From Polytrichum commune (taxonomy: Eukaryota; Streptophyta; Polytrichopsida; Polytrichales; Polytrichaceae), in assembly GCA_950295325.1 (NCBI GenBank), contig OX485804.1, positions 6,324,001 through 6,388,000 of the forward strand: a stretch of 64,000 nucleotides of DNA. The letters are read 5' to 3'. The notes under the pieces are model-generated. The model searched no databases. It was not told where the DNA came from and worked only from the letters and a program-made list of their open reading frames with translations. The position numbers were made by a program, and so were the translations under genes. Shown here piece after piece: positions 24,606 to 55,282 of the stretch. Each line of letters starts with the position of its first letter. Position 1 is the first letter of the stretch.

Positions 24606-24662
24606 ATGTAGCCACGGCAGTTAGACACATGACCATAATTTGCACATGATTGATAATCTTAC

Positions 24663-32972: not shown

Positions 32973-34615
32973 AACTCAAACTCTCCATTGCATCTCCAGT
33001 CTCACTCTTGAGAGGCTTTCTAAGTCTGGTACTCCGCGTCATAAGGATCATGAAATGGTGTGGCATTGCATGTCAGATAATTGTTAGCCAACGGTTAAGA
33101 TAGCTCTTACAAAATATGCCAAACATTCACATTGAAATTTTCACATTTTCCCCACATCTGTAGGATACACTTATTACTTTGTATCCCAACACCTAGCGCT
33201 TGGGGGGGGGGGGGGAGGGGGTGTGGGTTTGCACCTTACAGGGTCAATGTTACAGATTTATTGGTGTCAATTTACTAATGTTAATGAAGGCAAGTATTAT
33301 AAAATTAATGTGGGTCACATTGAATTACAATCCATATTAATTAGAGAAAACAATGTATTTTTAGGAGATTAAGTTTGGTACACATGAACCAACTATATTT
33401 CGTAGTAGTTGGGAATTATGTTTTCAAGTTTCAACTTAGATCTCTTACGAAACCAACCCTTAACAACAAACATTTATAAAACTCTTCAAAAGCTAAGATC
33501 TTCTTGTGGGCACGACTTTTCTCTAATGCATATTGAACCTAGTATAATAGAATTTAGAAGTATATCATAGTTTGCTACAAAGGAATGTGATATCAAGCAA
33601 AGGTAGCTATCAACTAATGTATAGTTTTTACCACTTTCATCAATGGTACTTGATTTTGTGAATACATTGAATAATTTTTTGGCCCTATACTGAAGTGATT
33701 TTGGAAGTTGTCTATGAAATATATAATGTCAGCATTGTGGTGTATAGAACCATTAGCCATCATATGTCATATATGTATTGTGCGCCAATACCCTATAGTT
33801 GTGCTAATGGTAAATTATTTTTGTTTATCATTCAGGGGACAAGGTGACTAATCTAATAACGAAATTGATGTGGACTTACTAGATTAACTAACTAGTTGAG
33901 TAGTCTACTAGGCTAATTGGTTTGCTAGCGTGGAGCGTTTGTTTTGGTTAAATATTTATCCAGTATGGGACAAGAATAAACCCTCATTAGATTAGATGAA
34001 TGTAATATTCACATACATAGCGGATGTGAGTTTGTTACAAATAAAATGATAAATATAACCCTCATAAGTGTTTATGGGGCCTAAGCCTATATCAATGCCT
34101 AAGGGTGATGGAATGGATGTGGTTGAGTACAAGAGTATAGACCACCAATTCCTACAACATGCACATATATCAATGCCCAAGGTTGGAAAAAACCTGCAAT
34201 CCAAGATGAATACAATATTTTTAGAATCAACAATCCATGTTCAAGCAACATACTTTCTCCTTGAAGCATGAAGTTGGTTAAACCAAAATCTTGATAATTT
34301 TGTAGTCTCAACATCAAAACAATTTTTGGGCATATTTCTAGTACTGTGAAAAATGTTCTAGAGGCACTACAAGCATCATTTGAACACCACTTGTAAAAAT
34401 TTAAATAAGGTTGGGACCAAATTTGAATTGCCCAAAATCTTGATATTCATGGTCTTGGCATCAACAAAACAAATTTCCATTTTTGTGAACATATTTTGTA
34501 AACCCTTGGAAACCTTGCAACTTGCAAGTGTGATACTAAGGTCCTTTGAAACCAACCTAAAATGCAATTTTTTTGGTATTTTTAGTCTCGACACCGCCAC
34601 AACAACTTTTCATTT

Positions 34616-34643
34616 AACACTATATTCGTTAAATTGAGACTTT
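34616..34643 (+). repeat. Giant element left terminal inverted repeat
   Basis: 28 bp, exactly complementary to 52287-52314; beyond it the two ends diverge at once. Preceded by ATTT. Confidence 0.88.
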
Positions 34644-34774
34644 TTGGGCATTTTGAGACATTCATAGAAATAAGAACAAGGATAAATGGAACACATATTG
34701 GTGAAAGTTGTAAGATGCAAACACTTTGAAGCGGGTGTTTAGACCAAGAACCCCATTAATAACTCATATTTGTG

Positions 34775-35010
34775 ATGGTTTAGGGTGGGCAATCGAAACC
34801 TTAGACCAAATTGAAGGGGACATCTTAAAACATTCATATTAATGCACACAAAATATGAGAGCTTGTATGAATATGGTTTAGGTAGGGCAATCCAAACCAT
34901 AGATCTTATTGAAGGGAAAATCTTAAAACATTCATATTAATGCACACAATAAGGCACTCCAAACCTTAGACCATATTGAAGGCAAAATCATGTGACACTT
35001 ATATTATTGC
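34775..35010. repeat. Left subterminal tandem repeats of the giant element
   Basis: Three diverged units (about 96 bp, then about 73 bp apart) share 'GGTTTAGG..GGGCAATC.AAACC', 'TTGAAGG' and 'ATCTTAAAACATTCATATTAATGCACACA'. Confidence 0.75.
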
Positions 35011-35129
35011 AAAAAAAACATACAAAGTATGGCACGTAAAATGCATAGCATGCTAACACCACACATCCATTGGATAGTGCGACCCAAAATGTTCTTGCCT
35101 ATGGCCCACAACCCTACGCCTACTATGGA

Positions 35130-35937
35130 CTATCTAGCCTCGGAGACTACCTCTTTTTCTTTTGCTTCATTTTCTTTTGCTTTTTTTTCTTTTGCCTCTT
35201 TTTCTTTTGCTGCGGCTTCTTTTGCTCGCATTGCTTCAACATTCCTGAAAATCTCCGCCCCGCGACTATAGCCATTCTTGGGGTGACCGCCATCAAAAAC
35301 ACATTTTGGATTCCGTCGGCCGCCCGAATTATACGACGAAGAATTCGAATACGATGAAGTGGACTGTCTTGCATTTCTGGTCATGGAGTAGAAACGCTCC
35401 AACTCGACGGACGCACTAGCCCGCATAGGTTTACGGGTGGGAGCAACCTGCAACGCGTCAATGCAAGAACACATGTGTTAGTTTAGGGAGGAAGACCCAA
35501 ACGTGTCACACGTTCAATTTTTAAGTGCGGGATGATTGTAATGCGCGGTTAACCATGTTTTGGGGGGGGGGGGGGGGGTTCACCTTGTCACCGGGGGCGT
35601 TCCCGTCGGAGTTGGCGAGGAGGGGCAAGGCGTCCCGCAAAGGGATAGGAAGGGTGCCACTCTTCGTGGGCCGAGCGTCCATCCGCAGCCGCCGTTGAGG
35701 TGTAATACTGCCGCCGGGCCGAGAGGGGGACGTCCGGACGCATTTGCGATTTATGCCCTTGAGCGGCGACGGGGACGGAGATGGCCGGAAGATTTGCTTG
35801 GGTGGGGGGCTATCGACGACGCCGGCGTCGATAGGCTCCTTGGAGTAGTCGATGGTGGACGCGGCATCGTAGACGGTCTCGTAGAAGAAGCTCCCCAACT
35901 CTGACTCGCTGACGATGTCAATCGAGGGCTCCAAACG
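35130..35937 (-). CDS. Two-exon frame of unknown function at the element's left end
   Basis: Exons 35937-35584 (118 codons) and 35447-35130 (105 codons plus stop) are both in phase 0, with acceptors GCTCCAG and GTTGCAG and donor AAG|GTGAAC. The first part is acidic then Ser/Pro/Arg-rich (PSIDIVSESELGSFFYET). The end is a Lys/Glu-rich helix (AKEAAAKEKEAKEKKAKEN) that could be coiled-coil or nuclear. No start codon is assigned. It may be a separate gene or the 3' part of the cargo gene if a donor near 36120 was lost. I recognise no family. Confidence 0.45.
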
Positions 35938-36050
35938 CTGGAGCAAAAAAGGAAACGAAACAAAACCCAAGGGAGGAGGGTTTGATAGAGCGCGTGAAAA
36001 TCAAGATACATATGAAGCATATATTACACAAAATGAACGGGCGCGCGCGC

Positions 36051-36068
36051 ACACACACACACACACAC
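36051..36068. repeat. (AC)9 microsatellite
   Basis: Adjoins GCGCGCGCGC at 36041-36050 and is followed by ATAC repeats. Confidence 0.9.
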
Positions 36069-36102
36069 ATACATACATACACATACAAACACACGTAGTG
36101 TC

Positions 36103-39100
36103 TCAAATGAGCTTGTTAAATTTCGCGTGAGATAACAACTCTCTGTACAAATGGTCTCGTGGATCCAAGTATCTCTCGCCTATCGGATTGTTCCTAACAA
36201 AATTGTTTACGGGCAGTCCGCTTTCGCAGAGCGCCTGGAGGTATTTACCAAGGTCTAACAAAAATCGGTCCCGGACCTTCTCGACCGTCCACGTAGGGCA
36301 AACTATGAGGTTGGCCGTCGGGTTCAACATGTTCTTTGCGGCGCTGTCGTCCACCATGAGCGTGTTCTCGCGGGTGGGCCGGACGTCGTAGGGGACGCCT
36401 ATCAATGACGGACGCTGGTCCCAAAAAATGGGCTTCAAGACCTTGAGGTATTGGGGGGAAGCGGGGTTGTTTGGTTTTTTGACGACTTTGCCGTCCGGTG
36501 TGTACAATATTCTATAGGCTTCCTGTGCTAGGACCATGCAGGGGGGCTCGATGCCCTTGAAGATGAACTCCACGACGGCATTGGTGTTCTCGGCCGTCAT
36601 GGAGCTCCACACGACCACCCACCATCGCTGTTGGGCCATCTGGAGGAAGGTCCGAAGCCACGGGCGGAGGTGAACTAGCTTGCTCTTTATGAATGTGGGC
36701 GGCCCGTCGTAATTAGCATCCTCGGGCTTGCAAAAGGGCACCGTGGGGGTCCTAGGGCAATGAACGCATTGGACGAGGACCCCGTTCAGGTCTAACACCA
36801 GGAATCGTTTCTTCGGCCGCGGGGGCGCCGCCGCGCTGCCCTCTCCACTCCTTGGAGAAGAGCGTCGGGGAGCCGCTACGCTATGCTCCGAGCCCTGCGG
36901 ATACGATCGAGAGAAAACGGTGGGCGACTTATGTCATGCTATGTCCAAACGAAGCATTTAAAGAAACGAGTGTTCTCGGTGCAAACACAAAACCATTTGA
37001 TTCATTTTGGAGGGGGTGCAACAAGGGACACAAGAGAGGCAAGAGCATACAACATACATCCAAACACAGGATACAAGTATATAGGAGTAAAAAATGGTGA
37101 TTATATTGTATACAATGCTCTATGTACATCTTGATTGGGGGGGAGCCGCGTTGAACGATGCGTTCAAACTAGCCTACTTCTACATCTAGCAAAAATTAAA
37201 GAGACGGGCCGCCGTGATGAAGACTTCGTCGCAAGCCGGGGGTATGTGGACGAATGAATGGTCGGGGGGATGTGGCGAAGGGCGCGAGTGCCGGGGGGCG
37301 CGAGTGCCGGGGGGCGCGACGTGTGCGTGAGTTTAGGGTAGCTAGGGGACACGACCAAGGCAAGAAGACAAAGACCCAGGGAGTTTGGGTCGACCGACCC
37401 AAACTGAGTGGGGTCAGTGCATTACCTCGCCTTGGTCGCGCCTTGACGACGTGGATGCCGTCACCGCGTGCGCTGCCCCACCTCTGTCACCGCCGCCTCC
37501 GACGACGACTTCAGCCTCAACCTGCTCATGCAAAGGCTGACTGTCAGGCCTTTGTCCCAACCCAACCTCCGCATGCGCATCATGCATTGGTTCATCGACT
37601 GGGTTAGGAGTAGAGGTATCACCAGGCCCTTGCGGGCCTTCAACATCTAACATGGGCTCGTCCACCGGGGTCTGATCGGGGACGGGGTTTGGGTCGGCCG
37701 ACCCAAACCCTGTTGCTTGGCGAGCGTCGCTCTGGGAAGCTGCAACGTCGGCACTGTTTGGGTCGGCCGACCCAAACATGTGGGGGTCGTCCCGCTGGTG
37801 GTGTGGGGGCAAGAGGATGGGAGGCCGGAGCGGCGGGGGTCCCAACGGGCTGGAAGCTCCGGGGACGCGCCAAAGGTTGGGGTCGTCCACCTGCTGGACG
37901 GGCGCGTAAGGGCGGGCGTGAGGCTGCAGCAAATGCGCGAAGCTGAAGGACTGCTGCGTAGCCGGCCGCGGGCGGATATCCTGTGGAGGGAAGCCTGCTG
38001 GCAAGTGAGGGAATGAACTCGGGGGAGCCATCACCAATCCCTGCGCCAGCATGCCCTGGATCACTTGCGTGATCAGGTCCGCTTGGGACGGAGGTGGGGC
38101 CATCGCCCTTTGCCGCTCCTGCTCCAACAGGAGAGCCCTCAACTCCGCGACTTCGTTGCGGACCGAGGGCTCCTCGGCGGCGGCCTTCTGCAATCGGATG
38201 CGTTGCTCCTCGTCCCGGAGCATCTTCGCGTTGGCCTCCTCCACGGTGAGGACCTCGGGTTTCACCCTCACCATCCCGGCGAACGCTGTGGGGGAGGCAG
38301 GATCCGACCTCAGCCTCTTTGCGAGCTCCATGTCGTCCTCGTCCTCGGAGCTTATGGCGATCGTCTCTTCCACCGCATAGTCGCTATATAATTTCTTCCC
38401 CTTCAGCATTCGCCGCTCCCTGAAGGTGGCCGTCGCGTCCCTCGAATACATGTCCTTCGCGTCGGCCACCGTGAGGACGGGCACTAGCTTGCTTTGCGGC
38501 GTGGCAGCCCGCATGGCCTTCTTCCGCTGAGGGGCCTCGGATTCTTGAGTGAATCCTGTTGCCCCTTCCTCCACCTCTCCTTCCACTTTCTCCTCCTCCT
38601 CCTCCTCCTCCTCCTCTTCCTCCTCCGCAACCTCGCCACCTGCCTCCACGGACGGATTGCCCGGATGCAATCCGGTGAGGGGTTCTGGCATTTGAACGGG
38701 GGCCTGCATGACGAATTCGCCTGGGTTGATTCGCCTGGCCATATCCAACGGGTTCTCGCCCCCCTCGACGATCTCTTCGACGTAGGATCCGGGAATCCAG
38801 TCGAGGATGTCCATTCTCTTCGCCAGAGCCTTCTGGGTCCTGTAGAATTGAACATCGGTATCCTCCACATAGGAGTAGATGTTCAACCCAGACATCTGCA
38901 CAATCCAAATCAATAATATTAGGATCACAAATGAAGAATAAGCAAAAATAACACCCAAAACAAAACAAGAATACTTAGTTTGGGTCGAGCGACCCAAACT
39001 GTGCCTGCTCTAGTTTGGGTCGAACGACCCAAACTGTGCCTGCCCCTAGTTTGGGTCGAGCGACCCAAACCAAGCATGCCCTAGTTTGGGTCGAGCAACC

Positions 39101-42100
39101 CAAACCAAGCATGCCCATAGTTTGGGTCGCTCGACCCAAACCAGGCATATAGATCGACGAGGTTAGTTTCTTACCATTGCTGCAAAAATCGGTTTGGAGC
39201 CCCCGAAGACGTTGAAGATGAAGTCCCCCCTCTTCGTGAGGGTCCTCATCATCCGCAGGTAAAAATCCATCCGCAGCTCATCCGCGGGGTAGTTGGCGTA
39301 CTTCGCCTCGTCGTACAAGCTCCTGCTGGTGCCCAACCCTTCTGGGACTTGGAAAAGCTTTTCCATCCGGGCTATAGGATGGTTTGGCACCTTCAGCAGC
39401 TCAGCTTTGTACACGAAGTACAAGCACAGCACACAGACTATCTTCGTCTTCTTGTCTTTCAATGAGCTGTACGCCCCCTCCGCCGGTGCAGCAACGTAAT
39501 GAGATTTTGAGACGGCGTACTCTGGTTGCAATTTACGCACGATCTCGTACACCTGCTCCGCCCTCCTGTCCTCGACAATCCACAACCAGACGTCGACCTC
39601 CCTGAATTTGGGGCTGGCGTAGTCCACAAACTTGGTGAAGAACGGCTCGTAAAACGGGGTGCTCATTGTCCCCTCGAATGAGGCTCCAGGAATGTTCCTG
39701 AAGTCTATCATTCCGAAGGGGAAGCGGTCCCCAGCTGCAGTCCTGATCGCCATCCTGGACTCAGAGCCCGGCCAACCTTGGATCTTTAGAGGTTCGAGGG
39801 AGACCAAGTTGAAGTGAGCTTCGCCCTCGAACCTGACGATCTTCTTCTCCTTTATAAAGTTGGAGAAGGCACGCGCGGAGTGTTCGGGAAGCGCCCGGTT
39901 CCTCCCCCCCTTCACGAACTTGGACCTGAGGAAGTCGTCTCCCGCCTCCCTCATGAGTGCCGCCATGGACGCACTGGTGAACTTGTACTCGGCTTTGAAT
40001 GCCCTCCAGTGCGCCTCGTCAACCTCTCCGTCCACGATGAGCTTCTTCTCGGGCACCAGCTTGTGCAGATCTTGGACAATGGTCGTCTTCTTCTTCCTGT
40101 TCTCCGTCCATTCCTTCAAGGTGTAGCATGAAGGGACGAAGATCTTTGGCTTCGTGAAGACGATCTTTGGGTGAACCCAGCATCTCTTCGCCGTCGGCTC
40201 CACGTGGAGGATGTGGGACGCCGCCTTTCCCACCTCTGTCTCTGAGAGACCTTGAAGAGCTCTAAAGAACTCCCTCACTAGTGGCTTCATTTGCTTGAAG
40301 CGCGCAGTCTGGTTATACAGAATACCGGTGTCGGGATCGATGAGGTCTCCCGTCTCGTGTTTTTCGAAGACAGTCTTCCATTTTGTCCACACGGAGTCAG
40401 ACGCTGTGATCAAGTAGATTTCTCCTCTTAGCTCGTTATATTTTTTTTGCTTGTGGCTAGCATTGTCAATAGAGGAGAATTTATTGATCATCTGGTATTT
40501 GAAGTCCTGAACATGAAGTCAAGAACATATGTTAGAGAACACATCATGAAAAAAATGGAACAGCAGTTTAAGACATGCCAATAGTTTGGGTCGATCGACC
40601 CAAACTTTAAATCTGATGAAGACTATAAGACATGCCAATAGTTTGGGTCGATCGACCCAAACTTTAAATCTGATGAAGACTATAAAACATGCCAATAGTT
40701 TGGGTCGATCGACCCAAACTTTAAATCTGATGAAGACTATAAGACATGCCAATAGTTTGGGTCGATCGACCCAAACTTTAAATCTGATGAAGACTATAAG
40801 ACATGCCAATAGTTTGGGTCGATCGACCCAAACTTTAAATCTGATGAAGACTATAAAACATGCCAATAGTTTGGGTCGATCGACCCAAACTTTAAATCTG
40901 ATGAATCCAAGAGTTTGGGTCGATCGACCCAAACTACAAAACTTGGGAAGAAAATAAAACAATACAAGAGTTTGGGTCGATCGACCCAAACTTACTCACC
41001 TCCCATTTTGGGTTCTTGTCTTTTGCATTCTCCCTTTCCTTGGGCGGCCTGCCGTAGAACTCCCACACATCCCTCGAGGCCATTATATTCCTAATCCAGG
41101 ATGCCTGATACGCCCTCTTTTTATTCCCCATGTTGAAAAACCTGGAGATGTCACTGAGGACGGTCTCGTTGTCCGACCAAACCACCAGTGCCTTCCATAC
41201 CTTCAGCTTCTCCTTCTGGTTGTTGGGGTCGTCCCATTCAGTCATCAGCTGGATTTTTTTGGAGGCCTCTACACTGTGCTGGCCGTCAATCAGCCAGAAA
41301 TCTCCTTTAGAAATCGCCGGCCACATATCAGCCGTAGGCATTCTTTTTAGCCCCTGGGGCATCACGACAATTGTCTGCCTGTCGTCCTTGAACTGCCCTC
41401 CCAAGATTTGAGCGACCATCCAGTCGACATAGGCATCCTCCTTGGCTCGGACACACTTTTCAGGTGGCGCAAGGTGGCATTGTGCAATGTTCACCTCGAA
41501 CTTGAAGTCCCTGCCCATGAAGAAGCAATGGAGGCATTTCGTCTCAAAATTGTCGTTGATTTTTTGAATTTCCCCAGCATCAACCTCTTGGCCAGGCTTG
41601 GGCATCTGCAACTCTGGCGAAACTGGCTCGGTGGTCATGACTGATGACTCTCTTGCCCTTTTCGACGGGGTCGTCTGCCGGCTTCCGGACGGGGTCGTCA
41701 GCCGGCTTCCTGAAGGAGTTGGCGTCTCGCTGTCAGCCGGAGTCGAGGTAGTGCTCGGTCTTCTAGAATCTGCCGGAACCGCCAGCGGAATCCTCACAGA
41801 TTGGGGTCTGGAGGAACCTGCTCCTTCTTCTGTCTTGGCCTTCCGCCTGACAGGTTGTTGCGTTTTTGGTTTGCTTTGCAACGCTTTATTCAAAACCGTG
41901 ATCGCTTGTTTCAGTTTTGTGAACCTGCTAGCGACCTTGGTGTTCGATACAGTGCCATCTATGAAGATGGTCTCCGGTTTTATTATCTCCGGGTCAACGC
42001 ACGTCTCCTTGGCATATAGGGGGTCGAAAGCCTCGGAGAATTGGTGCATGAACATATGCACGTTCTGCACTGCGGAGTTCTCTAGAATAACGTCAACGTG

Positions 42101-42349
42101 CTCCCCGAGAGCTTGGACGGAAGCAACCTCCCATCCCGTCAGCGTTGCCCAGGTGTGTTGCTCGTGGGTCCCCACTTTCACCACGAACAAGAGCTTGTAC
42201 TGGGAGGCTTTCACAACCTGAACGGACCACGCAAAAACAATCCCATCCTTTGGGACGTATGAGTCGTCCTGTGGAGTTTCGTACTCCTCCCAAAGGTAGT
42301 CTGGGGCGAGCATGAACCACCTCTCTCCAGGTCTCTTTTTAGTGGCCAT
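36103..42349 (-). CDS. Cargo gene: DGQH-motif protein fused to an FCP1-like HAD phosphatase domain
   Basis: Four exons on the minus strand, all phase 0: 42349-41000 (450 codons), 40506-39175 (444), 38895-37426 (490) and 36894-36103 (263 plus stop), about 1,647 residues. Each has a good donor (GAG|GTGAGTAAG, ATG|GTAAGAA, GAG|GTAATG) and acceptor. Exon 1 has a Ser/Thr/Pro-rich linker, then FWLIDGQHSVEASKKIQ near 350, reminiscent of the DGQHR motif of ParB/sulfiredoxin-like folds. Exon 2 (WKTVFEKHETGDLID...) is unrecognised. Exon 3 has a Glu run, NLS-like KKK/KR patches and a Pro-rich end holding two palindrome-encoded FGSADPN peptides. Exon 4 is FCP1/NIF-like: LVLDLNGVLV near 1415 (nucleophile Asp kept, second Asp replaced by Asn as in plant DLNGVL proteins), VVWSSMTAENTN, and MVDDSAAKN near 1564. 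Its introns and leader carry most palindromes. Whether all exons form one mRNA is inference. Confidence 0.6.
37383..37777. repeat. Three palindromes around and within cargo exon 3
   Basis: Copies at 37383-37404 (centre AC, in intron 3), 37687-37708 and 37756-37777 (centre GC, perfect palindromes). The last two lie in frame in exon 3 and read FGSADPN. Confidence 0.95.
38585..38635. repeat. CCT/CTC codon repeat (poly-Glu)
   Basis: A trinucleotide run encoding about 12 Glu on the minus strand in cargo exon 3. Confidence 0.9.
38978..39141. repeat. Five palindromes in cargo intron 2
   Basis: Starts at 38978, 39013, 39049, 39084 and 39120, a period near 35-36 bp. Centres are AG, AA, AG, AG (one arm mismatch) and CT. 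Spacers share GCCTGCCC/AAGCATGCCC-like words. Confidence 0.95.
40584..40991. repeat. Eight palindromes in cargo intron 1 (57-bp tandem array)
   Basis: Starts at 40584, 40641, 40698, 40755, 40812 and 40869 (exact 57-bp period), then 40913 and 40970. All have centre AT, making TTTGGGTCGATCGACCCAAA a perfect 20-bp palindrome. Spacers 'TTTAAATCTGATGAAGACTATAA(G/A)ACATGCCAATA' are nearly identical. Confidence 0.97.
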
Positions 42350-42375
42350 CTGTAAGTCCAGAAACAAAATTGTTA

Positions 42376-43018
42376 GTTTAGGTCGATCGACCCAAAGTTT
42401 TTCAACTTGGATTGAACATCAGTGCGAATTGAAGGGTGCTCTACTGGCCATCATGAAGAGGTTTGGGTCGACCGACCCAAACCCAAGCCTCGAATAGCCT
42501 AATCTTATAAGAATTATTGGTAGAGTTCGGGTCTTAAGAATATGAATATATTGAATATTGTGTAGTGGTCAAATTATCCAACATGAGAGCAATTTTCGGT
42601 GACCTTCTAGAGCCGCGCTGGACGTATGTGGACATGCCAGCAAATATCAGACGATTTCAAATTATAGCCATTTGAATATAATTTCTTGTTGATGGTGGGA
42701 AGGATGTTTATCTTGGGATATTGGATTTGTAGGTTGCAGAGTTTGGGTCGAGCGACCCAAACCAGCTGCAGAGTTTGGGTCGCTCGACCCAAACCAGCTG
42801 CATAGTTTCGGTCGAGCGACCCAAACCAGCTGCATAGTTTGGGTTGAGCGACCCAAACCAGCTGCAGAGTTTGGGTCGAGCGACCCAAACCGCCTGCAGG
42901 TTTTGGGTCGTTCGAACCCAACCAGCTGCAGAGTTTGGGTCGAGCGACCCAAACCGCCTGCAGGTTTTGGGTCGTTCGAACCCAACCAGCTGCAGAGTTT
43001 GGGTCGGTCGACCCAAAC
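42376..43018. repeat. Eleven palindromes upstream of the cargo gene
   Basis: Single copies lie at 42376 (degenerate) and 42461 (centre AC). Nine more at 42741, 42773, 42805, 42837, 42869, 42900, 42933, 42963 and 42997 repeat every 31-36 bp with spacer CAGCTGCA(G/T)A. Centres are AG or CT (that is, the same motif read on either strand), the last GT. Two are degenerate (TTCGAACCCAA). They lie in the inferred 5' leader/intron of the cargo gene. Confidence 0.95.
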
Positions 43019-43339
43019 TAGCTGCCCAGTTAATTCTTTATGGGTTTGGGGTTTTATATAGAGGTTTCGGGCGTCTACCGAAACCGTAGTGTTTCCATAT
43101 TCACCCATAATGTTTTACGCTGCATATACAATGCTTATACATTGTATATGCATGAAGACCCTAAAGGCTAAGAAGCAGGTTATGTTGAATGAGATAAGTT
43201 ACCTTGATGCAAGCTCTACCAATCTGATGTTGTTTTGCGAATAGGTTTTGCGAATCTGATTCTTAGAATCTGATTACACCTGAACACTCAGATATCACTA
43301 ACACTCACTAGAATTCCACTCACTAGATTTCACAAACAA

Positions 43340-43860
43340 CTCACACACACTTCAAAACAACAAAAGCACTCTGAAATCACTACAACGGCGCACTTTAAAA
43401 CAAAAACACACTCCTAACCAACAAACACACTCTGAAATCACTCAATGCTCGTATTTTTAAACAAAACAACACTCCTAAACAACAAACACACTATGAAATC
43501 ACTCAATGCGGATACTTTTACACAAAAACACTACCCTACTACAATCACTCCTAAACCCTTACAAGAAGAAGAGAGAATGAGAGACGGCGAGAAGAATGAG
43601 AGAAGAGAGAAGGAGAGTATGAGAGAATGAGAGAATGAGTGTAAGTCGAAAGGCGCCGCTTGCAGTCCTAACCAACAAACACACTCTGAAATCACTCAAT
43701 GCTTGTATTTTTAAACAAAACAACACTCCTAATCAACATACACACCCTGAAATCACTCAATGCGCATATTTCTACACAAAAACACTTCCCCAACCCCTAA
43801 ACACACTCTACAATCACTCCTAAACCCTTACAAGAAAAAAAGAGAATGAGAGAAGAGGGT
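43340..43860. repeat. Direct repeat, about 253-bp period
   Basis: 'CACTCTGAAATCACTCAATGC' at about 43428 recurs at about 43681, with following 'GTATTTTTAAACAAAACAACACTCCTAA' and later 'AATCACTCCTAAACCCTTACAAGAA'. A more diverged unit precedes at about 43345. It lies upstream of the cargo gene and may hold its promoter. Confidence 0.8.
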
Positions 43861-44039
43861 TACAAGAATCAGAGAGGTGGAAAGGAATGAGAGAGAGAAT
43901 GTGGGAAGCGGCGTTAGGCGGAGGCGCCGCTTCACGACAAGGTGAGAAATGAGGGAGAGAAAGGAGGGAGCTTGGCGCGGAGGGAGTTAAATAGACAAAG
44001 CGAAGGGTCGCCATGGGACCCAATCTGGGCCATGGGAGC

Positions 44040-44222
44040 GCCCCGAGCCCATCTACGGCTCACAAGCCTCGCGGGCAGCCACCCTGCCATGTGTCAACAC
44101 CTTATTGGTGATGGTGGCTACCCGAGGCTTCTGGGGTGCACACTTGGCGCCTAGCGGCCACCCGGCCTCCTGCCCGCCAAAGCCCGGCCCCGGCCTTCTA
44201 AGCCGCTATCTATAGCGGCTTA
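44040..44222. repeat. GC-rich hairpins
   Basis: AAGCCTCGCGGGCAGCCACC (about 44064) pairs imperfectly with GGTGGCTACCCGAGGCTT (about 44112). TAAGCCGCTAT-CT-ATAGCGGCTTA at 44199-44222 is a perfect 11-bp-arm hairpin. The patch is much richer in GC than its surroundings. Function unknown. Confidence 0.7.
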
Positions 44223-44745
44223 GCCCAAAAATCGAAAAGCAACATAGCCTAAGGTATTGCACATAATTAACACCATCACCAACTCTGATTTTAATGGTGT
44301 TCAATTCAATGGTCCCGCGTTGGAATTGCTTACATCATAGAATGAATCCATTATTTGTTTTAGTATTTGAATAATGTAGTCATATGGAGTAAGATGAGAG
44401 CGATACAAAGTCTAAGAGGAGTATTTCATAAGTATATTGCAATTCTCAATGCAATTGCACGGTGCAACAATTAAAATATGGTGACAATTTACATGGTCAA
44501 GGGTTTAGTGCTCTCTATTGTAATTTCTATAACCCAAGTTCGTAGAAGATAAGGCTCTAGCATACAATGGATATTACCCACCCAAGTAGCATTAAATTCA
44601 ACATTTATATCAGTACATAGAAGTTGACATTTGAAGTACATGGGAGATACACAAAGATTACAAATTTATCTACTGCAACCCCATGGAGTTCAACATCATA
44701 TGAAGCCATTTAAGCATTAAGCTTGATGTTCGATGATCCCTCCAA

Positions 44746-44778
44746 CCTAAACCCTAAACCCTAAACCCTAAACCCTAC
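44746..44778. repeat. Interstitial telomere-like (CCCTAAA)n
   Basis: About four units of the plant telomere repeat; a shorter opposite-strand TTTAGGG pair is at about 46430-46445. Confidence 0.9.
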
Positions 44779-45537
44779 ACACCGCAAGCCTTAAATGAAT
44801 GGCACATAAGGTTAAATGACAGGGCCTTAGTGCTTGTAGTTTCCAATACAAATGTATATTGTCTTGACAACATCCTAATCATATGTGCTCACGATCATGT
44901 CAACCAATATTAAGTTATAACAATGTCTGTCTAAAAAAAAGAGTATAATAACTTGATTATAGTATATATGATCTTCATACTAGATTTCAAATGGACTTCA
45001 TGATAGTTTCAAACATCCTTGAAAGAGTGAACTAAAAAGTCCTATTCGTGATGGAATTCCCATTAATGCCTTTCACATAGGTTATCCATTGCCACACTTG
45101 TATGTTGGACAATGGATCAACGTTGTGTGCACACATTACAAACGTCACATGTTCTTTTAAAGCTTTTCTCATTTTATTGTTGCAAATTGAAAGTTGGCCA
45201 ATTTATTCAAATTTTTCATGAGATCAATTCCTTGTTTTCAATGTATAAGTCCTCATGTGAAAGTCTTCATAATGACATAAACTGTAATTATTGTATTTGG
45301 TGGCTTTGGCTATATGAAGTTTCATAATGTTCCCACATATATTGTCAAGATATTATTTGAAATAAACCATAATATTTGAGTCCAAGTAGAGTAATATCCT
45401 GGAAGTACATAATTTAATTTGTATGCAATGCATCAATGTGAAGTTGTGGAGGATGGGTTCTCAAAATCACTTATCAAATATCATTTTCTTCCCAATGGTG
45501 CATGTCATAGGCACATAAAATGAGACAGTCTACCCCC

Positions 45538-46155
45538 ATCAACAATAATTTTAATTTTTTTGACAAATATTGTTATAGGATATTGGAAGATATATTGGAG
45601 ATCTTTCTTTATCATTTTTTTTTCATATCCTTACTAACACTATATTCAAACATGTAACTTCAACATATTACCATAGATAATATTGAGTGTTTGAGTTTAC
45701 ATTTGATGTTACTTACTTTCATAGTGGTATTAGTATTGAGTAGATGCGTTCGTATTTATTGTATCAAACTCTAAATATGTTATTTATTGTAGGGACACTA
45801 CAACACTACATTTTTTGTCAAACATTTTTTTAAACAAATAAAGTTAACTACATTTTTTTGACAGGTCAAATCACAAATAACTTAAGTTACAAAACCCAAC
45901 TACACAAAATATGATATCTAGTGTTTGATACCCTATATACAAGCGCATGCACTAAATATCAATAACCATATGAAAGTCAGTGACATAAAATGTAAACTCT
46001 CACAATAAGTATCATCTATGGTAATATGTAGAATTTACATGTTTGCAATTAGTGTTAGGAAGGATGTGAAAAGAAAAAATTTACGTGAAAGTAGAAGGTA
46101 AGCGACACATTTATGTGTAACAATAATTGTCAAAGATTTAAAAATTAATGTTGAG
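45538..46155. repeat. Long foldback, arms of about 300 bp
   Basis: 45538-45838 is the diverged reverse complement of about 45850-46155. Both read, in order, 'TTGACAA.TATTGTTA', 'CATATCCTTACTAACACTA'/'CACATCCTTCCTAACACTA', 'CAAACATGTAA', 'ACATATTACCATAGAT'. The centre is near 45843. About 100 bp of related sequence flanks it in direct orientation ('CATTGCCACACTTG' at 45089 and 46395). Confidence 0.75.
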
Positions 46156-46867
46156 CATAGTAGAGTGGTAACAACACTAAATATAATGAAACACACACCC
46201 CATATTTTGTGTAGTTATTTCATCACGGAATTAGCAATGTCATTTGATGGTTGGCGCCACGAAGAGCCACGAAGGCCACACATTAGTAAACTTGAAGTGA
46301 ACTTCAAGATGGATTCAAATATCATTAATAGATTGAACTAAAACGCCACATTGGTAGTTAGTATCCCTTTAACAACGTCCACATACGTTCCTCATTGCCA
46401 CACTTGCATGCGAGATAATAGAGCAATGTTCTAGGGTTTAGGGTTTATGGGAGACAAATAAATAATTTTATTCATCACGACAATGGCCTCAAGCCTTGGA
46501 AACCCTTTCATAATTGCAGCCTCCAAATGGCCCAAACCCCACCTAAATAGGTTTACACTTGAAAGCATTGAATGGAGTTAAAATATTGGTTAAAATATAC
46601 CGTCATGACACTTGAAAAAATTAATGTGGCCGCCACCCTTCCTCCCAACGGCGTATGTCATATCCACAAAAGACAAAAAAAAGAAGATTAAATATCATAG
46701 ACTAAGTCATATGACGGCTGGGGTATCAGAGGGGCATTGATAGATGCGCATTTTCCACTATAAACAAAAAACGGGGAATTATGTTAGGAGGTTTTGAAAT
46801 AATCAAAATATGAGAACAAGGCGGGAAAGGCATCCAATGAGGAAGTCCGAGAAACGGAGGTGGATAG

Positions 46868-46873
46868 TATAAA
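46868..46873 (+). promoter_or_regulatory. Candidate TATA box of the transposase-like gene
   Basis: GTATAAAGGGACGC, followed 30-40 bp on by CTTTTTTGCTCTTCTCCC, a plausible start region. If used, the 79-bp palindrome array would lie in the leader or first intron, because an acceptor-like GTGTGTAG sits just before the ATG at 48719. Confidence 0.4.
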
Positions 46874-47137
46874 GGGACGCACCCCCCAAAATTCAGTCCT
46901 TTTTTGCTCTTCTCCCACTTTTGAATTCGTGGAGAGAACTCTTAGTCGGAGCTATACTTCAAGGTTCGTGCATGCTTCCGTTCATTAGCACTTATCCACA
47001 GCATGCAAGTTCATGAGCACCTATCCACAGCATGGAAGCCCACCGTGAACTTTGCAATGAGCTCAAAATCAACACATTTCGGATTATCCGCCGCATTATC
47101 CGCCGGATTTTGAGGGTTTTAGGGTGACTCTTATCAG

Positions 47138-48505
47138 GTTTGGGTCGGTCGACCCAAACCCCTCCGCTAGTGTGGGCGGGTTTCAGCCTGACCCTGATCA
47201 TCTGAGGAGTCCATCTTGCCCCTCAAGGTTTGGGTCGGTCGACCCAAACCTTTACTCTCATGAGGCAGTTACTAGGGTGGACACGGAGTCCATCCTGCCC
47301 CTCAATGTTTGGGTCGGTCGACCCAAACCCACCCTCACATGGGGCAAGTACTAGGGTGCGCATGGAGCCCATGCTGCCCCTCAATGTTTGGGTCGGTCGA
47401 CCCAAACCTATCCCCTCGTGAGGCAGGATCTAGAGTGGACAAGGAGCCCATCCTGGCCCTCAAGGTTTGGGTCGGTCGACCCAAACCTATCCCCTCGTGA
47501 GGCAGGGTCTAGAGTGGACAAGGAGCCCATCCTGGCCCTCAAGGTTTGGGTCGGTCGACCCAAACCTATACCCTCATGAGGCAGGTACTAGGGTGGACAC
47601 GGAGTCCATCTTGCCCCTCAAGGTTTGGGTCGGTCGACCCAAACCCACCCTCACATGGGGCAGGTACTAGGGTGCACACTGAGCCCATCCTGCCCCTCAA
47701 TGTTTGGGTCGGTCGACCCAAACCTATACTCTCATGAGGCAGGTACTAGGATGGACACGGAGTCCATCCTGCCCCTCAAGGTTTGGGTCGGTCGACCCAA
47801 ACCTATACCCTCATGAGGCAGGTACTAGGGTGGACACGGAGTCCATCCTACCCCTGAAGGTTTGGGTCGGTCGACCCAAACCCACCTTCACATGAGGCAG
47901 GTACTAGGGTGCACACGGAGCCCATCCTGTCCCTGAAGGTTTGGGTCAGTCGACCCAAACCCACCTTCACATGAGGCAGGTACTAGGGTGCACACGGAGC
48001 CCATCCTGCCCCTGAAGGTTTGGGTCGGTCGACCCAAACCCACCTTCACATGAGGCAGGTACTAGGGTGCACACGGAGCCCATCCTGCCCCTGAAGGTTT
48101 GGGTCGGTCGACCCAAACCCACCTTCACATGAGGCAGGTACTAGGGTGCACACGGAGCCCATCCTGCCCCTGAAGGTTTGGGTCGGTCGACCCAAACCCA
48201 CCCCCACGTGAGGCAGGTACTAGGGTGGACTTTGAGCCCTTCCTGCCCTATAAGGTTTGGGTCGGTCGATCCAAACCTTATCCCACAGTGGGCATGTACT
48301 AGGTTTGACCCATCCCAGTGCCCTTACATAATTTGGGACGGTCTACCCAATCCATCCCCGCTGTGTGGGTGCTCTCTGTGATGAGCCTGAACCCATCTTG
48401 CGAAAACGTTTGGGTCGCTCGACCCAATTTATCCCCACTGTTTGGATGGAATCTGGATGACCATGATCCCATCGTGCCACAAGGTTTGGGTAGGTCGACC
48501 CAACC
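47138..48505. repeat. 79-bp tandem array of palindromes upstream of the transposase
   Basis: A palindrome at 47138, then 14 at exact 79-bp steps from 47228 to 48255, then three decayed ones (about 48331, 48408 and 48484). All regular copies have centre GT. Spacers carry '(C/A)CTCATGAGGCAGGTACTAGGGTG.ACACGGAG' and 'CCCATCCTGCCCCTCAA'. The serial ORFs reading MGRSTQT...FGSVDPN are by-products. Position next to the transposase suggests a binding platform or regulatory leader, but this is inference. Confidence 0.95.
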
Positions 48506-48718
48506 CCAGACCCACCGTGTGGATGGGCTCTAAATGATAGTGTGTCCACTGGCCAACCCAAACCTTTACAGAGCCAATGGCATAGCAGTCATACGAACAT
48601 GTATGAACACTGAGTATTTGCAATATTTTTTATATAAGATGGTTTTTGTATTATTCGATTGGAACCTACAATTTTTGTGGTTTCTTGATAAGGTTCAATG
48701 TTCATGTGTGTAGGCAGA

Positions 48719-51700
48719 ATGAATGGGTTTAGTGAAAGAGGGGATTGGTCATCTGAAGATATGGCCACTTCGCCATCTGCATCTGAGGATGAGATAGACA
48801 TTGTCGGGGAGGATACTTTGGCTGACAGTGCAGATGAAGATCATTTGGATATACCTTCGCCTTCCGTACCGCAATGTCCCATTGCTGAATGTACGGGACT
48901 CTCAAGGGCTTCATGGGTGAATTTGGAGGTGGTACTTCTTAATGACAGTGGAGTTGCTGTGGCAGAGGGGATTTGTCGCAACACCCATCCACAAGATTGC
49001 ATTGATGAAAACCCGCTTGGCACCGAGGACGTTGGGGTTGTCATATTGGAGTCGTTCGTTCATTCCGAGGTGGATCCCACTCATAGGTTCTCCCTCCGGA
49101 GGTGGCCATTGAGGAATGTCACGATTGATGGAGTTAGTTTGTATGAACATGAGCAACGACACTTGCAAATCGAAAAAGAGCAGCAATCAAACATGCGGCC
49201 ACGCAAGGGTCAAAGAAAGTACGATACATTGGCACGTCCTGCTCCGTCTGCAACTGATTGTAAACGTCAAAGGTTGCTCGGGGAGGAGTCCATTAGAGAA
49301 GTTGCCACAAAGGATTGTTGTGTGCATCGTTGTTGCCAATTGTTTCCCCGGGATAAATTGAAGGCCATCCGCGAAGAAATGTGGCTTGGTGATTTCCGTC
49401 TAAGATCCACCAAAAAACTTGATGTGCATAGGGCGATACATGTGAATGGGGCGGGTCGCAAGGTCATCACCATTGAGAGCATAGACGTGTGTTGCAAGGC
49501 ATGGTACACCATTCATGGTGTGTCGAAAGCGGACTTTTATAGACAAGCTGCTTATGCCAAGGAAGGCCGCTGGTCCCGTCACCATGGGAACGTGGGTTTA
49601 AAGAAACCTAGGGAAACAACAAGGCAAGCAACGGCCACTCTAGCAACCATCATTGTCCCGCTTGCCGATGCAATGCCGCACAAAACACGCACACTCACAA
49701 CTGGTGAAAAGGTTGTGGAGAAAGTTCTTCCCACAGGCACAAAATGGAAAGACATATTGTTGGATGTAAATGCAGTTGGCGAGAAGATTGGGTTGGAGCC
49801 AATTTCATCGTCAAAATTGAGTGCAATCAAGAAAGCAAACTTCAGCGAATACATTACAAAAAGACGAGGGGACAAATTTGCAAGGTGCTCTAATTGCGAG
49901 AAGTTGAAGCGCCTTCGGGATGCACACACGATGGGTACCGAGTCGTTTGCGGTGCATCAATTGAACTATTTCAAGCACGTAAACATGCAAGAGGCACACC
50001 GTAATGATTACTACACAAATAGAGCTTTGTCCATCTCCAGGCCCTTGGAAGTTCTTACGGTCATCCATGACAAAATGGACCATGCCAAGACAGCCTCCCT
50101 ATGTTTTGCAAAACGAATCAAGGCCACGGATGGATTTTTTAAGTTGCATGTATCGGTTACAGGTGATCTTCGAAACAATGTTATGACATACCCTAAATAT
50201 TGTTGTATTTTATTCCGTGATGTACTTGAGAACATTGATTCATTCAAAACGATTTAGACATACATAGGTACTAATGACTTTGGGTTGGCATTGTAGGAAT
50301 GATTGCACATGGACACGGTGATGTCAAGTTTGCCCATTATGCTCTTGATTTGTATCCAGCAAATTCAAACCACACGATAGGGTCATTTGCAAGGCTTTTG
50401 CGTGATTTAGAGAAACCGCCAGCCTATTCTTCAGGATTGTTATTTGAAAACACGGGTTCAACACCTTTATATGAAGCAGTGATGGATGGAAAAGATGTAT
50501 GCTTGCATTCGTTGCCCGAACCACCCAGTGAACCGGTGATAGCCAAGAAGTTGCCCCCCACTTTGCGTGTCCAATTGGACAATTGTGCCAAGGACAATAA
50601 AAGTAGATATGTATTTGCATATTGGTCGTTGTTGGTTGCGAAAGGCATTTTCAAGGAGGTTTTTGTGTCCTTCCTATTGGTAGGCCACACGCACGACGAT
50701 ATTGATGCATCATTTGGACGGTGGAGCATGAAGTTGCGGGAGGAGGATTTTCCTACAATCCCGTTATTGATGAAGTCGTACATGGATTTGGAGAACGTTC
50801 CCGTCATCCCCCATATGATTGAGGAGGTGCCAGACTTCAAGGCATTTATAGAACCTTATATTCGAAGTGGAGCTCATCGATTGATTGGCCATACGAAGGC
50901 ACAACAATTCCGGTTCTACATGCGTGACGATGGTGTCCCGGCCATGCAATACAAGTTGTTGTGCACGACACAAGACTAGAGCCCGCCAGAGGGTCTCCTT
51001 GTGTGGTGCGTGGATGCGGATGGGAAGACCATGTTACCGGATGGAGAGCCTAGGCCTTGCAAGCCAATAGCCATGAAGAATTTGGAGGATATTTTGAAAG
51101 GTATATCAGGCTTCATTCAATATTGGGAGAGTTTGAAGATAGCGGATGTTGGCGGATCATGTTGGCATCGTTATGGGAGTTGGATACATTATTGGACACG
51201 TGTTCGTGCGGCCTTGGCAGATCTCCACCAAGATAGCCCTCATACTTTGAGGCACGGATTTTGGCCACAAACTCGTATCGATGTACAAGCTTCGGAGGCT
51301 AGTCTTTTGAGTAATGGAGAGGTTCGCGAGGAGTTTGATATGGACGACCATTACGTTGGGCCTGCTAGTAGTCGTCCGCCACCATCTTTCCGCATTGCAG
51401 TGGATTGTCATGAAGGTTATATGCTCATTTTGCGTCCTGGAGATGAGACATATGCAAAGCCAGTGTGGGTGGCAAGAGCTTTGTCCAATCAAAATTTTGT
51501 ATCTTCCAGCCCTCATTTTCGACAAATACAAGTGGAGTACTACCGACCGACAGCACGGAATGAAGATGTTGTTCGGCATTATACAGGCTGGGATACAAAC
51601 CAACACTTTCGGTGGAAGGTGGATTCTGAGCACGGTCCATCTTGGGTAGATACAGATTCCATATTCATAGCATGGAAACCACGGAAAAATCATAGTGGAT

Positions 51701-51783
51701 CAGTGTCCATCCCTCAAAAGTACATAACTTTTGCAAAAGACAACCTTGCTCGGATCGGAGAAGAAGCAACCCACGTTGAATGA
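48719..51783 (+). CDS. DUF7869-like putative DDE transposase, one internal stop
   Basis: Two exons: 48719-50162 and 50297-51783. Splicing at ACAG|GTGATC and TTGTAG|GA rebuilds KLHVSVTGMIAHGHGDVKFA. It is 976 codons long with an in-frame TAG at 50977-50979 (codon about 709), after which the same frame stays open for 268 codons. Acidic N-terminus; a Cys-containing middle (CCVHRCC, CSNCEKLK); then the RNase H-like-looking triad candidates DKMDHAK (near 452), VQLDNCAKDNK (near 573) and VGHTHDDIDASFGRWS (near 612). The C-terminal region (PVWVARALS...IQVEYYRP...TDSIFIAWKP) looks like a small beta-barrel (SH3/BAH-like), tentatively. DUF7869 proteins are widespread and poorly characterised; the transposase role is inferred from motif pattern and location at the end of a TIR-bounded element. 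The stop may mark a dead copy. ATG 48719 follows an acceptor-like GTGTGTAG. Confidence 0.75.
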
Positions 51784-52286
51784 GAAGTTGGTAGGATTGT
51801 GTTAGCATGATTATAGTGTAAACTGTGATTCGACGAATATATATTACTCATATGTGTGCTCCTCAAACTTGGGGCAAAGTTTGGGTAGAACTTGCGAATG
51901 CTATATTGTTTGGGGTTGGATGAATATCCATTTACTATATTTCAATACAATTGTGAAGTTCATTTTTTTATTAAGTTTGGGACTAAATTTTCCATTGAAG
52001 AAAAATGCATTTATTGCATGCACTTTGTATGTTGCAATGTCTATATTTTATTGACCATGCTATTAATAGAAATCATTTTATATGTTTTTTGGGTGAAACT
52101 AGTTTGGAGTGCTCTACCCAAAGTGTTTTTGTTGATGAAGTTGGTGTTGAGTGCTCTACCATATGTGCTTATGTCCACACATAATAGATTTGGGATATTA
52201 GAACATATAATATATTTGAGATTGTTCGCAATATAGTTTCGGAACACGGAATGTTGTTTGATCCATATATTAATTTGAGACTAGAG

Positions 52287-52314
52287 AAAGTCTCAATTTA
52301 ACGAATATAGTGTT
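52287..52314 (-). repeat. Giant element right terminal inverted repeat
   Basis: Exact reverse complement of 34616-34643, about 500 bp after the transposase stop codon; followed by ATTT. Confidence 0.88.
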
Positions 52315-52954
52315 ATTTCTTGGCAACTTCCAAAAACCTGGGGAGGAGTTGGGCTCACTTGGAGACCACTTGAAAAAACTTGAAATCTAGTTTTAACAAA
52401 CTTGTTTTGTAGACTTGTAGTCTTGGGACCGAGACAACAAAATCCCATTTTTCAAACACCTTTTGGAAACCTTGGAACGCGTTGTCGGTGTCATTTGTAG
52501 ACCACTTGAAGCAAATAAACTTATGTAACTTTAACCAACTTCACCAACTTCACAATGCCCAAAATCTTGACATTGAAATTTGAAACATCTGTAGCTACAT
52601 GAGAAACCAAAGATTAAGCCATGTAAAAAAATATGCAAATAAAATTGAAATTTGTAGCCAACAAATTAAAAGATCATCTCATATATAAACTATATTTTAA
52701 TAAGCTTATCAAGTATGGTAACTCAACTTAGTTTAATGTTCAGTACTCAAACCCTCCTTGCGGTTGTGTGGTGGCACTTTGGACACCTCAAAGAAGTTGC
52801 CCATGCATCTCTCTATTTTGGATCCCTATAGTCTTGAACTTCTTTAGACAATAAAACAAACTGTTCCATTTGAAACAAAACCAACAACGAAACACTTGCA
52901 ACAACCCAATGATAAGAGAAGTCACAACATATATTTATCTAGCCTTTGCTTGAT

Positions 52955-55145
52955 TCAAGGGCAGAATGTGACTTGGTAATTGCTGGTCGTGGGGCACCCA
53001 TACACATGGTTGGCGTTGTCGGTGGAGTAAGAATACGCGTCGGGGCACGCAGAGGCAAATTTCTCGGTGCCGGAAGTTGCAACAGTTCCTGTGCCGTCAG
53101 TGTTGTAGCAACCGTCTCCCGGGGCACCGGTGAGCGTGTTGGGTGACGTGCAGAAGGAGTTGAGGTCGCTGATGGAGCAGGTGGGGTTAGTGCATGTGGT
53201 TCCGCTTGGGTTCACACCGCCGGCAATCGATGTCACACTGATCTCCATGCCGAGGTTGTATGCATTCTGTAGAATTTGCGCAATTGAAACTTCCAAATGA
53301 TTAGCTTTTCCACGGGAGGGTCACATAATCTGCACTAAACCATCCAAGTTACCAGAACATGCATGTTTCTAGCCTAGTGTGTATATATGTGTATCCAGCA
53401 CAGATTACTTCGTAGTTCACTTAGGTATATCTTCAAGTTGTGATGAATTGTATATGTATAACCAATTGACTGTTCACCCATCTACAAGCCCGGCTGATTC
53501 TACAAGCGATGACGAGGTTGTTTGCATTCTGCAGTGTTCGTGGAAAGTCTATTTGGTTGGCCTTCCTGGGGACGACACAATTAGAACTCAATCATAGTTA
53601 GGATTACACAGAATTTGGAACTCACACATCCAGCCCAGATGGACATATGATGAATATCTCTCACGATCGTGAATTGTCCAAAGCCTACAATAGAGAAGAG
53701 AATGGGCAACAAGCTCCAGTAACATCAACCGCAACCCGGTGTTATGATGGGAATGCTCTCGGCGTGGATAGATAATGCATTTCCATCATTTCCACGTGTA
53801 TCGGCCTCCTGGGAGGATGTGACTCGAGTACAATTAATGAGGAATAAAGAGATCTCTCAATCAAAACAGCAGAAAGAAACCATCACTCATGCCGGTTGTT
53901 CGACACGTCAACATTATAATATACATGTTTGGACATCTTACCACGTTGCTGATGTCATAGGAATCCTCGTTACCAGAGTTGATGGTGAACTCCGCGAGAT
54001 TTGCCTGAGGCTTGGCATTGTTCCCGGTTGTGGTTCCAGATCCCTCTTTGGCTGGGTACGCCCAGATTACACCTGCGGTCCAAGTAGAGCCCACATCAAG
54101 GGAATACGAGCCTCCGTTGGCACTCAGATTGTCGAAGCACGCCAATGCGCTATTGTTATCCGTCTTGCACGCATTCAAGTTCTCGGAGCACGAATTCACA
54201 ATGTTGATCGTAGCAGCTGCACAATATTATACACAAGGCAAGCGATATCTTGAATTAATAGGTACCTTAAGGCTAGTGTTAATCAATTTATCAATTGTGC
54301 AACATCTTCACGTCTACCATGCCAGTGACTCATGTGAAGGATGATCATCAAGACTTGTTCGATATATGCTTCTGATATCGAGGATTTCCATTGGATCATA
54401 TATGATGCAAAAACTACCATTAACTTTTGACATCAAATCATGGGACACTCTCTGCTATAAAAGAATATATGGAGGCCACTCTACATAACAGAACACATCA
54501 ATTTTAACGCCACAATAAGTCAATTAGACAATGTCATACACGTGTAAGTCAAAACCAATACAACATCGCAGTCTAATTAATCTCAAATGACTCAAATCCA
54601 GTGTTAGACCCATAACCATTTGGTGCATAAGGTGGAAATCTGGTATTGGGGAAGACGACGCCTTCTACTTAGCATGACCCTCTCCTTCCCTCAATCTAAT
54701 TTGTGGACCTGCATGATCGAAGTGTCTAGAGAAGAGGGCTCCAAAATGGGTATGTACAGTAATCCCTCTCGACCCTTCCGGACCTCGAAGATTAATTAGT
54801 CGATAACCATTTGACACACGAAATGGCGTTCCGGCACTGGGAAATAGGATTAACTTCCCCATAATGCAACCTCGCCCTCCCCCATATATCTTCAACCTCG
54901 ATCATCGATCTCCAAAGTTAGAGGGCCTAGATCTGGTTGTGGTCCAGACATTATCCAAAGGGGAGGACGCCAAAGCAGTTATGTCCATTAACCCCGCTCA
55001 AGCCTCCCCTAACGTGTAACCAAGGGCTTCCAAAATTGGGTAGAAGTAACAAACCATGAATAGAGGCAGCCATCACCAACGCCATAACAGCACCCGCTTG
55101 CAAGCGCAGGAGGGCAGCGGCTCTCTCAGAACGTGCCATCGCCAT
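52955..55145 (-). CDS. Thaumatin-like protein (PR-5 family), secreted
   Basis: Three exons on the minus strand: 55145-55055, 54216-53942 and 53266-52955, 225 residues. The first junction (CATG|GTTTGT to GTGCAG|CT) yields a signal peptide, ...VMALVMAASIHA, followed by ATINIVNSC. The second (GTG|GTAAGA to CTACAG|AAT) gives YDISNVNAYNLGMEI. The thaumatin signature elements SYSLDVGSTWTAGVIWAYP, LAEFTIN, ACPDAYSYSTDNAN and NYQVTFCP are present, with ten cysteines after the signal peptide. The family's acidic-cleft central segment looks shortened or altered compared with typical PR-5 proteins, so beta-glucan binding or antifungal action is uncertain. Start at 55145 (MAMARSERAAAL); MARSER at 55139 is an alternative. 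A paralogue is dead at 9987-25567. Confidence 0.85.
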
Positions 55146-55282
55146 CTTCAAGCTTTGAAAGAGCACTAGATTGAACCGAGTGATTTGCAAACTCCTCTTG
55201 ATATCAGAGTCGCGTGGTAAACTTATGAATGCACAAATGATCTACTTGAAATGGTTGTGCAGAACGTACAGGATGTGAGGAC

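Follow-up and report, generated by a model that had tools for sequence, protein, structure and literature searches.

We analyzed a 64-kb stretch of the genome of the moss Polytrichum commune (assembly GCA_950295325.1, contig OX485804.1, positions 6,324,001 to 6,388,000; hereafter, the window, in whose coordinates positions are given unless another contig is named) and found that its segment 34616-52314 is a transposon, one copy of an abundant family of 14-18 kb elements. The element encodes a protein with a DUF7869 domain, likely its transposase, and a second, multi-exon gene that we call M, in which a predicted DNA amino-methyltransferase-like fold is joined to an NIF phosphatase domain; between its ends, the element holds arrays of a 22-bp palindrome. 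The interpretation that we favor, with a probability of roughly 0.45, is that this is a two-gene element of the Sola type, in which M recognizes the palindromes of its own element and thereby controls or de-silences it.

The original prediction, made from the letters of the window, held that this segment is a single mobile unit, and the ends bear this out. The 28-bp terminal inverted repeat, which gives element ends reading AACACTA...TAGTGTT, lies at 34616-34643 on the plus strand and, as an exact match, at 52287-52314 on the minus strand, with ATTT on both flanks (34612-34615 and 52315-52318, no strand assigned), precisely as described before. The genome search that had been proposed, run on the 407.8-Mb assembly of 64 contigs, recovered, at up to 3 mismatches, 1029 and 1031 such ends on the two strands, and 0 for the reversed control. 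The 90 exact ends on one contig (C1) yield 34 adjacent plus/minus pairs less than 50 kb apart, and 21 of these pairs span 14-19 kb, compared with 0.11 expected under random placement. We read 11 full copies, namely, that in the window (W) and the first ten 14-19 kb pairs on C1 (E1-E10); given that these were selected by exact ends, the identity of the 28 bp at both ends of all 11 is partly by choice. All 11 are bounded by perfect 4-bp duplications (ATTT, AAGT, ATAA, GTAA, TATA, ATCT, TTTT, GAAG, TCAT, CTAT and TTAG). Matching 4-bp duplications also flank 20 of 20 further end pairs, of which 14 span 15.7-18.5 kb, one 4.8 kb and five 26.6-42.9 kb, the last five presumably holding nested insertions, as well as 2 of 3 other long pairs. 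Overall, perfect duplications were found in 33 of the 34 end pairs tested, with 28 different sequences among the 33, the sole exception being a nested pair (L015/L016). These target duplications are AT-rich and follow no fixed pattern. The flanks of the window copy taken alone also fit a TA target of the Tc1-like kind, a reading that is ruled out by the other copies, which share only the 4-bp scheme.

The 4.8-kb pair (locus L058, C1:42393157-42397936) is a 4780-bp deletion derivative with intact ends and a 4-bp duplication, without M exons 1-3 and with zero exact palindromes. Many of the ends in the genome belong to such shortened copies or to old ones, because the 9231 exact palindromes present genome-wide, divided by the approximately 26 per full copy, amount to only about 350 full-length equivalents. 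We infer that the element has been recently active.

Both genes are present in 11 of the 11 full copies, some of them broken by scattered stops; copy E7 is without part of M exons 2 and 3, and copy E1 has an insertion in the DUF7869 gene. A second copy with the same gene set between the same ends, set beforehand as the test of the mobile unit, was thus found ten times over. The DUF7869 gene lies near the right end on the plus strand, where it had been placed (PF25273, E 1.8e-43 for exon 2), and consists of two predicted exons, 48719-50162 and 50297-51783, separated by one intron; its full-length relatives are about 940 amino acids long. In the window copy, it is interrupted by an in-frame premature stop at 50977-50979, where the ten other copies read open.

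The large multi-exon gene with a phosphatase domain expected on the opposite strand is also there, as M. Its model, a prediction from DNA with no transcript behind it, comprises four exons on the minus strand (42349-41000, 40506-39175, 38895-37426 and 36927-36103) with phase 0 junctions and GT-AG introns, for a protein of 1658 amino acids. Exon 1, with the start codon, contains a DGQH motif that resembles ParB and sulfiredoxin by motif only, as no match to the ParB family was obtained. The predicted model of exon 2 shows the fold of a beta-class DNA amino-methyltransferase: all 50 structural matches listed are named DNA or RNA methyltransferases or their complexes. By sequence, exon 2 has no convincing relative among solved structures, Pfam or NCBIfam, and the likeness was revealed by the fold alone. 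Exon 3 encodes the end of the methyltransferase-like part followed by an acidic and low-complexity stretch, and exon 4 the NIF (FCP/SCP-like) domain (PF03031, E 2e-14; 54 bits against a Pfam cut-off of 21.8). Phosphatases of the NIF/FCP-SCP group have the active-site motif DxDx(T/V), which was not found in the NIF domain of M, where the nucleophile motif reads DLNGV in all 11 copies. Beyond the stop codon of M, also on the minus strand, lie two conserved coding-like stretches, M5 (35578-35940), which shows codon periodicity and a dN/dS of 0.19, and M6 (35130-35447), for which the value of 1.04 comes from 4 pairs only and is uninformative; the two may make up a third gene. In the literature, none of 12 titles listed out of 607 concerned an NIF gene in moss transposons, and none of 10 listed out of 63 described an adenine or N4 methyltransferase in a DNA transposon of plants.

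Purifying selection acts on M with a strength similar to, or greater than, that seen in the DUF7869 gene. The dN/dS ratios were obtained from 9 of the 11 copies, with M6 left out and saturated or too similar pairs dropped, leaving 10, 26, 32 and 33 of 36 pairs for M exons 1-4, and 32, 26 and 25 for three pieces of the DUF7869 gene; the median values are 0.06, 0.08, 0.18 and 0.18 for the former, and 0.27, 0.10 and 0.18 for the latter. M had initially been labeled cargo. Its presence in every full copy, together with these ratios, rules out a passenger and makes M a gene of the element itself.

The two genes do not appear to share a single history along their length. For M exons 1-3, the median synonymous distance is 0.83, 1.52 and 0.92, against 0.25 for M exon 4 and 0.25-0.46 for the DUF7869 gene, so that divergence is greater in the central part of the element than toward its ends. 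In M, copy E5 is 85-97% identical to W versus 76-85% to E4, whereas in the DUF7869 gene, it is 96-98% identical to E4 versus 86-91% to W. Copies E3 and E9 are close to W in the DUF7869 gene (92-96%) and form the longest branch in M exons 1-3 (74-76%; E7, in which part of exons 2 and 3 is missing, was omitted from the trees of these two exons). Given that the segments disagree on the relationships among copies, the elements appear to exchange modules.

The third constant component is the palindrome, GTTTGGGTCGNNCGACCCAAAC, which occurs at 15-36 exact sites per full copy and 290 times in the 11 copies; none arose in 50 shuffles of the window copy. In the window copy, strandless arrays of this motif are located in M intron 2 (38978-39141), in M intron 1 (40584-40991, with a 57-bp unit), upstream of M (42376-43018, with a 32-bp unit) and upstream of the DUF7869 gene (47138-48505, with a 79-bp unit); single sites are found in intron 3 just after the donor site (37383-37404, likewise strandless) and twice within M exon 3 (37687-37708 and 37756-37777). 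The same placement is seen across the copies: of the 290 exact sites, introns 1, 2 and 3 of M hold 43, 37 and 11, respectively, the 1.2 kb upstream of M hold 57, and the 2 kb upstream of the DUF7869 gene hold 121. Thus, 269 of 290 are noncoding, and the other 21 belong to the two fixed sites in exon 3; M exons 1, 2 and 4 have none, and neither do the middle and left end of the element or the stretch from the start of the DUF7869 gene to the right end. At a given place, the length of the repeat unit surrounding the palindrome varies from copy to copy (79, 78, 63-65/56 or 38/73 bp upstream of the DUF7869 gene; 57, 45-49 or 40 bp in intron 1), indicating that the arrays are renewed while the palindrome stays. 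The two middle bases of the palindrome vary as well, being chiefly AC, AG, AT and AA on collapsed strands. In E3 and E9, which form their own branch in M, the center is AC or AT in 0 of 73 sites counted at up to 4 mismatches; in E2, E4 and E6, it is AC or AT in 89 of 114 sites so counted, and AG in 3. This partial covariation is suggestive of M and the palindrome center being matched to each other.

Taken together, these features can be assembled into the following scenario. The two genes would be transcribed divergently from a common central region. The DUF7869 protein would act as a cut-and-paste transposase, inserting the 28-bp ends at 4-bp targets that are mostly AT-rich. The amino-methyltransferase-like part of M would recognize the 22-bp palindromes, bringing M to the arrays upstream of both genes and inside its own introns. 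There, M, with its NIF domain of the fold seen in phosphatases of the RNA polymerase II C-terminal domain (CTD), would keep or switch the element promoters on against host silencing, in a manner analogous to the action of VANC proteins on VANDAL elements. A bolder version, which we hold only tentatively and consider somewhat doubtful, is that this fusion of bacterial-type ParB/amino-methyltransferase and CTD-phosphatase-like parts is a self-recognition factor that reads the palindrome arrays and counters silencing, that it evolved independently of VANDAL/VANC, and that the central dinucleotide is a changing specificity code.

Several observations weigh against M as a reader of the palindromes. 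Sequence searches detected no known DNA-binding domain in M. Beta-class amino-methyltransferases carry the signatures [D/S/N]PP[Y/W/F] (motif IV) and FxGxG (motif I). In M exon 2, where DPPY would be expected, D272, R274 and P277 are present in 44 of 44 aligned sequences, and at motif I, N436, G439, G440 and K442 are equally invariant, with S or T at position 441 in 41 of 44 (both motif positions assigned by eye); because both signatures are altered, M may be inactive as a methyltransferase or act in another role. The palindrome centers are mixed in the other six copies, and the pattern described above, coming from two and three related copies, could reflect mere ancestry. Finally, the palindromes had been predicted to be confined to the element, which holds within the window (34 exact sites inside the element and 0 in the other 46301 bp) and only in part across the genome. 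Of the first 100 palindromes listed on C1, three elements with exact ends account for 77 (both ends are listed for two of these elements and a single end for the third), and 23 fall in two regions without an exact end listed within 20 kb; here, palindromes were matched to ends by hand, and the listed ends are the exact ones, those with 1-3 mismatches being unlisted. One stretch taken from each of these two regions (L091 and L092, 4.2 and 3.5 kb) contains arrays and no match to the M or DUF7869 proteins. The two loci share sequence flanking their arrays and may represent a second element using the same motif, or remains. Four more palindromes outside an end (L026) lie in another copy of the family, one that received the copy with this end as an insertion. 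Separately, the insertion in the DUF7869 gene of E1, about 1.5 kb long, recurs in L091 at 97-100% identity and appears to be another recent mobile element.

How, then, do other explanations of M and the palindromes fare? M might bind the palindromes as an autorepressor or as a regulator of transposition, that is, for copy-number control. Arrays beside both promoters and in the introns of M are equally what a repressor of both genes needs, whereas the strong upkeep of M through deep divergence and the roughly 1000 ends per strand are better suited to a factor that helps the element to spread; the latter is not decisive, and we regard such a role of M as unlikely, yet a serious contender. Alternatively, the palindromes could serve a host factor as intronic and promoter enhancers, in which case M would have no connection to them. 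The arrays outside this family and the indirect nature of the link between M and the motif would fit such enhancers, which we nevertheless consider rather unlikely, given the concentration of 77 of the first 100 listed sites in just three elements of this family and the partial covariation of palindrome center with M clade. Active N6A or N4C methylation of the palindromes by M, as a mark that protects or flags the element, is quite improbable: each palindrome does hold two CpG, plus adenines in TCGNNCGA, but at both the DPPY-type motif IV and motif I, the expected residues have given way to others that are invariant in turn. Least convincing among these options, and very improbable in our assessment, is a role of the palindromes as transposase-binding sites akin to the subterminal repeats of En/Spm. 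They are regularly spaced and numerous in each copy, and in 9 of 11 copies, sequences with a weak, diverged likeness to the motif (up to 4 mismatches) occur at a distance of 160-370 bp from the left end, within an approximately 98-bp repeat (34775-35016 in the window copy). However, none of the 290 exact sites lies between the left end and M exon 4 or between the start of the DUF7869 gene and the right end, and the 4780-bp derivative with its 4-bp duplication has no palindrome, although loss after insertion is possible.

The favored scenario also depends on what kind of transposon this is. The DUF7869 protein is likely the transposase, putatively of the DDE type. Among its candidate acidic residues, D418 in the motif HDKMDH is present in 36 of 38 alignment rows with letters, and the D and N of D-N-x-x-x-[D/E]-N-K-N in 34 of 34; a third acid (HDD) was noticed by eye and is uncounted. 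Comparison by sequence with solved structures gave nothing at E < 0.3, and a literature search on DUF7869 found no papers; the named protein relatives among the matches listed come from the mosses Physcomitrium patens and Ceratodon purpureus. Elements of the MULE/VANDAL group make duplications of about 9 bp, and this assignment does not fit the 4-bp duplications or the outcome of a Pfam scan, in which none of ten long frames from the element contained a MULE domain. The element is probably a giant autonomous DNA transposon of the Sola superfamily, given that the 4-bp duplications, terminal inverted repeats, moss host and size all fit: in the available part of its description, Sola has 4-bp target duplications and terminal inverted repeats, occurs in Physcomitrella and can exceed 15 kb (PMC10741241). 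A further likeness would be a transposase with an acidic triad, putative in the moss element; the comparison is by description only, and the second gene and the palindrome arrays are not mentioned for Sola in that part of the source (PMC10741241). The earlier statement that the element matches no known class was therefore too strong, the more so as its arrays have a working counterpart in VANDAL elements.

CACTA/EnSpm transposons end at CACTA and make 2-3 bp duplications, and the chance that the moss element is one of them, with ends that happen to begin with AA, is negligible: CACTA does occur two bases into its ends, but the 4-bp duplications abut AA rather than CACTA (33 of 34 pairs), which rules out this reading, and none of the ten scanned frames contains Transposase_21 or another En/Spm domain. 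A genuine CACTA/EnSpm element is present elsewhere in the window, at 12091-22691, with Transposase_21 (19002-20825), DUF4218 and DUF4216 on the plus strand. On its opposite strand, it, too, encodes an NIF-domain protein (12091-13905, E 9.1e-10), which shares 23% identity with M exon 4 over 151 aligned positions; the NIF fold accompanies two different kinds of transposon. As for motif arrays in this neighbor, no 10-mer with at least 3 different letters occurs 6 or more times in 9000-24500. The window further includes an NB-ARC leucine-rich-repeat gene at 5417-8689, the repeat part of which is a regular 72-bp tandem repeat in the DNA; direct repeat pieces, 24620-29168 and 53898-58848, which are 73-93% identical, about 29.6 kb apart and flank the element on both sides; and a retroelement fragment of the RNase H type at 59700-60170.

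Regardless of mechanism, the analysis defines an abundant family of giant autonomous elements with a precise end, gene set and duplication, and points to a likely transposase in a family known to Pfam only as a domain of unknown function. If M does read the palindromes, two or more unrelated transposon systems in plants would evade silencing by marking themselves with arrays of a motif, and a bacterial-type amino-methyltransferase fold would stand at the center of the regulation of a plant element. Gene targeting works well in mosses, and the recurrence of such anti-silencing systems would be testable there.

Among characterized systems, the beta-class DNA amino-methyltransferases, such as M.BceJIV, CcrM, RsrI and the rotifer N4CMT, differ from M, which has altered signatures and a fused NIF domain and is carried by a plant DNA transposon. 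C5 methyltransferases are reportedly found in retrotransposons of dinoflagellates and charophytes. TET/JBP enzymes are carried by fungal DNA transposons, according to the available part of that account (PMC12730594). What these carriers share with the moss element is the combination of a mobile element with an enzyme of DNA-methylation biology, whereas the class of enzyme and the class of element are different, and the moss element has target-like motif arrays inside. The ParB-like plus adenine methyltransferase proteins of Wolbachia prophages, as excerpted, combine a DGQH motif with an amino-methyltransferase fold that follows it in the same chain, as does M; unlike these, M resembles ParB by the motif only and belongs to a eukaryotic element (PMC3089641). 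The closest functional parallel would be VANDAL21 of Arabidopsis. Neither its duplication length nor its detected domains make the moss element a MULE, and its motif is a 22-bp palindrome, the binding of which by M we infer, whereas the VANC motif is, in the excerpted source, a 9-bp directional sequence (PMC5735166). The available parts of the VANDAL literature place the VANC motifs in noncoding sequence, in the introns of VANC and VANB and upstream of VANA, where they were built by tandem duplication (PMC5735166; PMC10398659), and describe AT9TSD1 and VANC6 as using the same motif (PMC5735166). Within the limits of these sources, the likeness extends to a short motif in tandem-built, mainly noncoding arrays located in introns and upstream regions with fast turnover of the unit (PMC5735166), and to a second element protein beside the transposase (PMC5735166; PMC10398659). 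The moss element matches this pattern in that its arrays are noncoding at 269 of 290 sites and built of tandem repeats with differing unit lengths, and partially in the specificity of the motif for its family.

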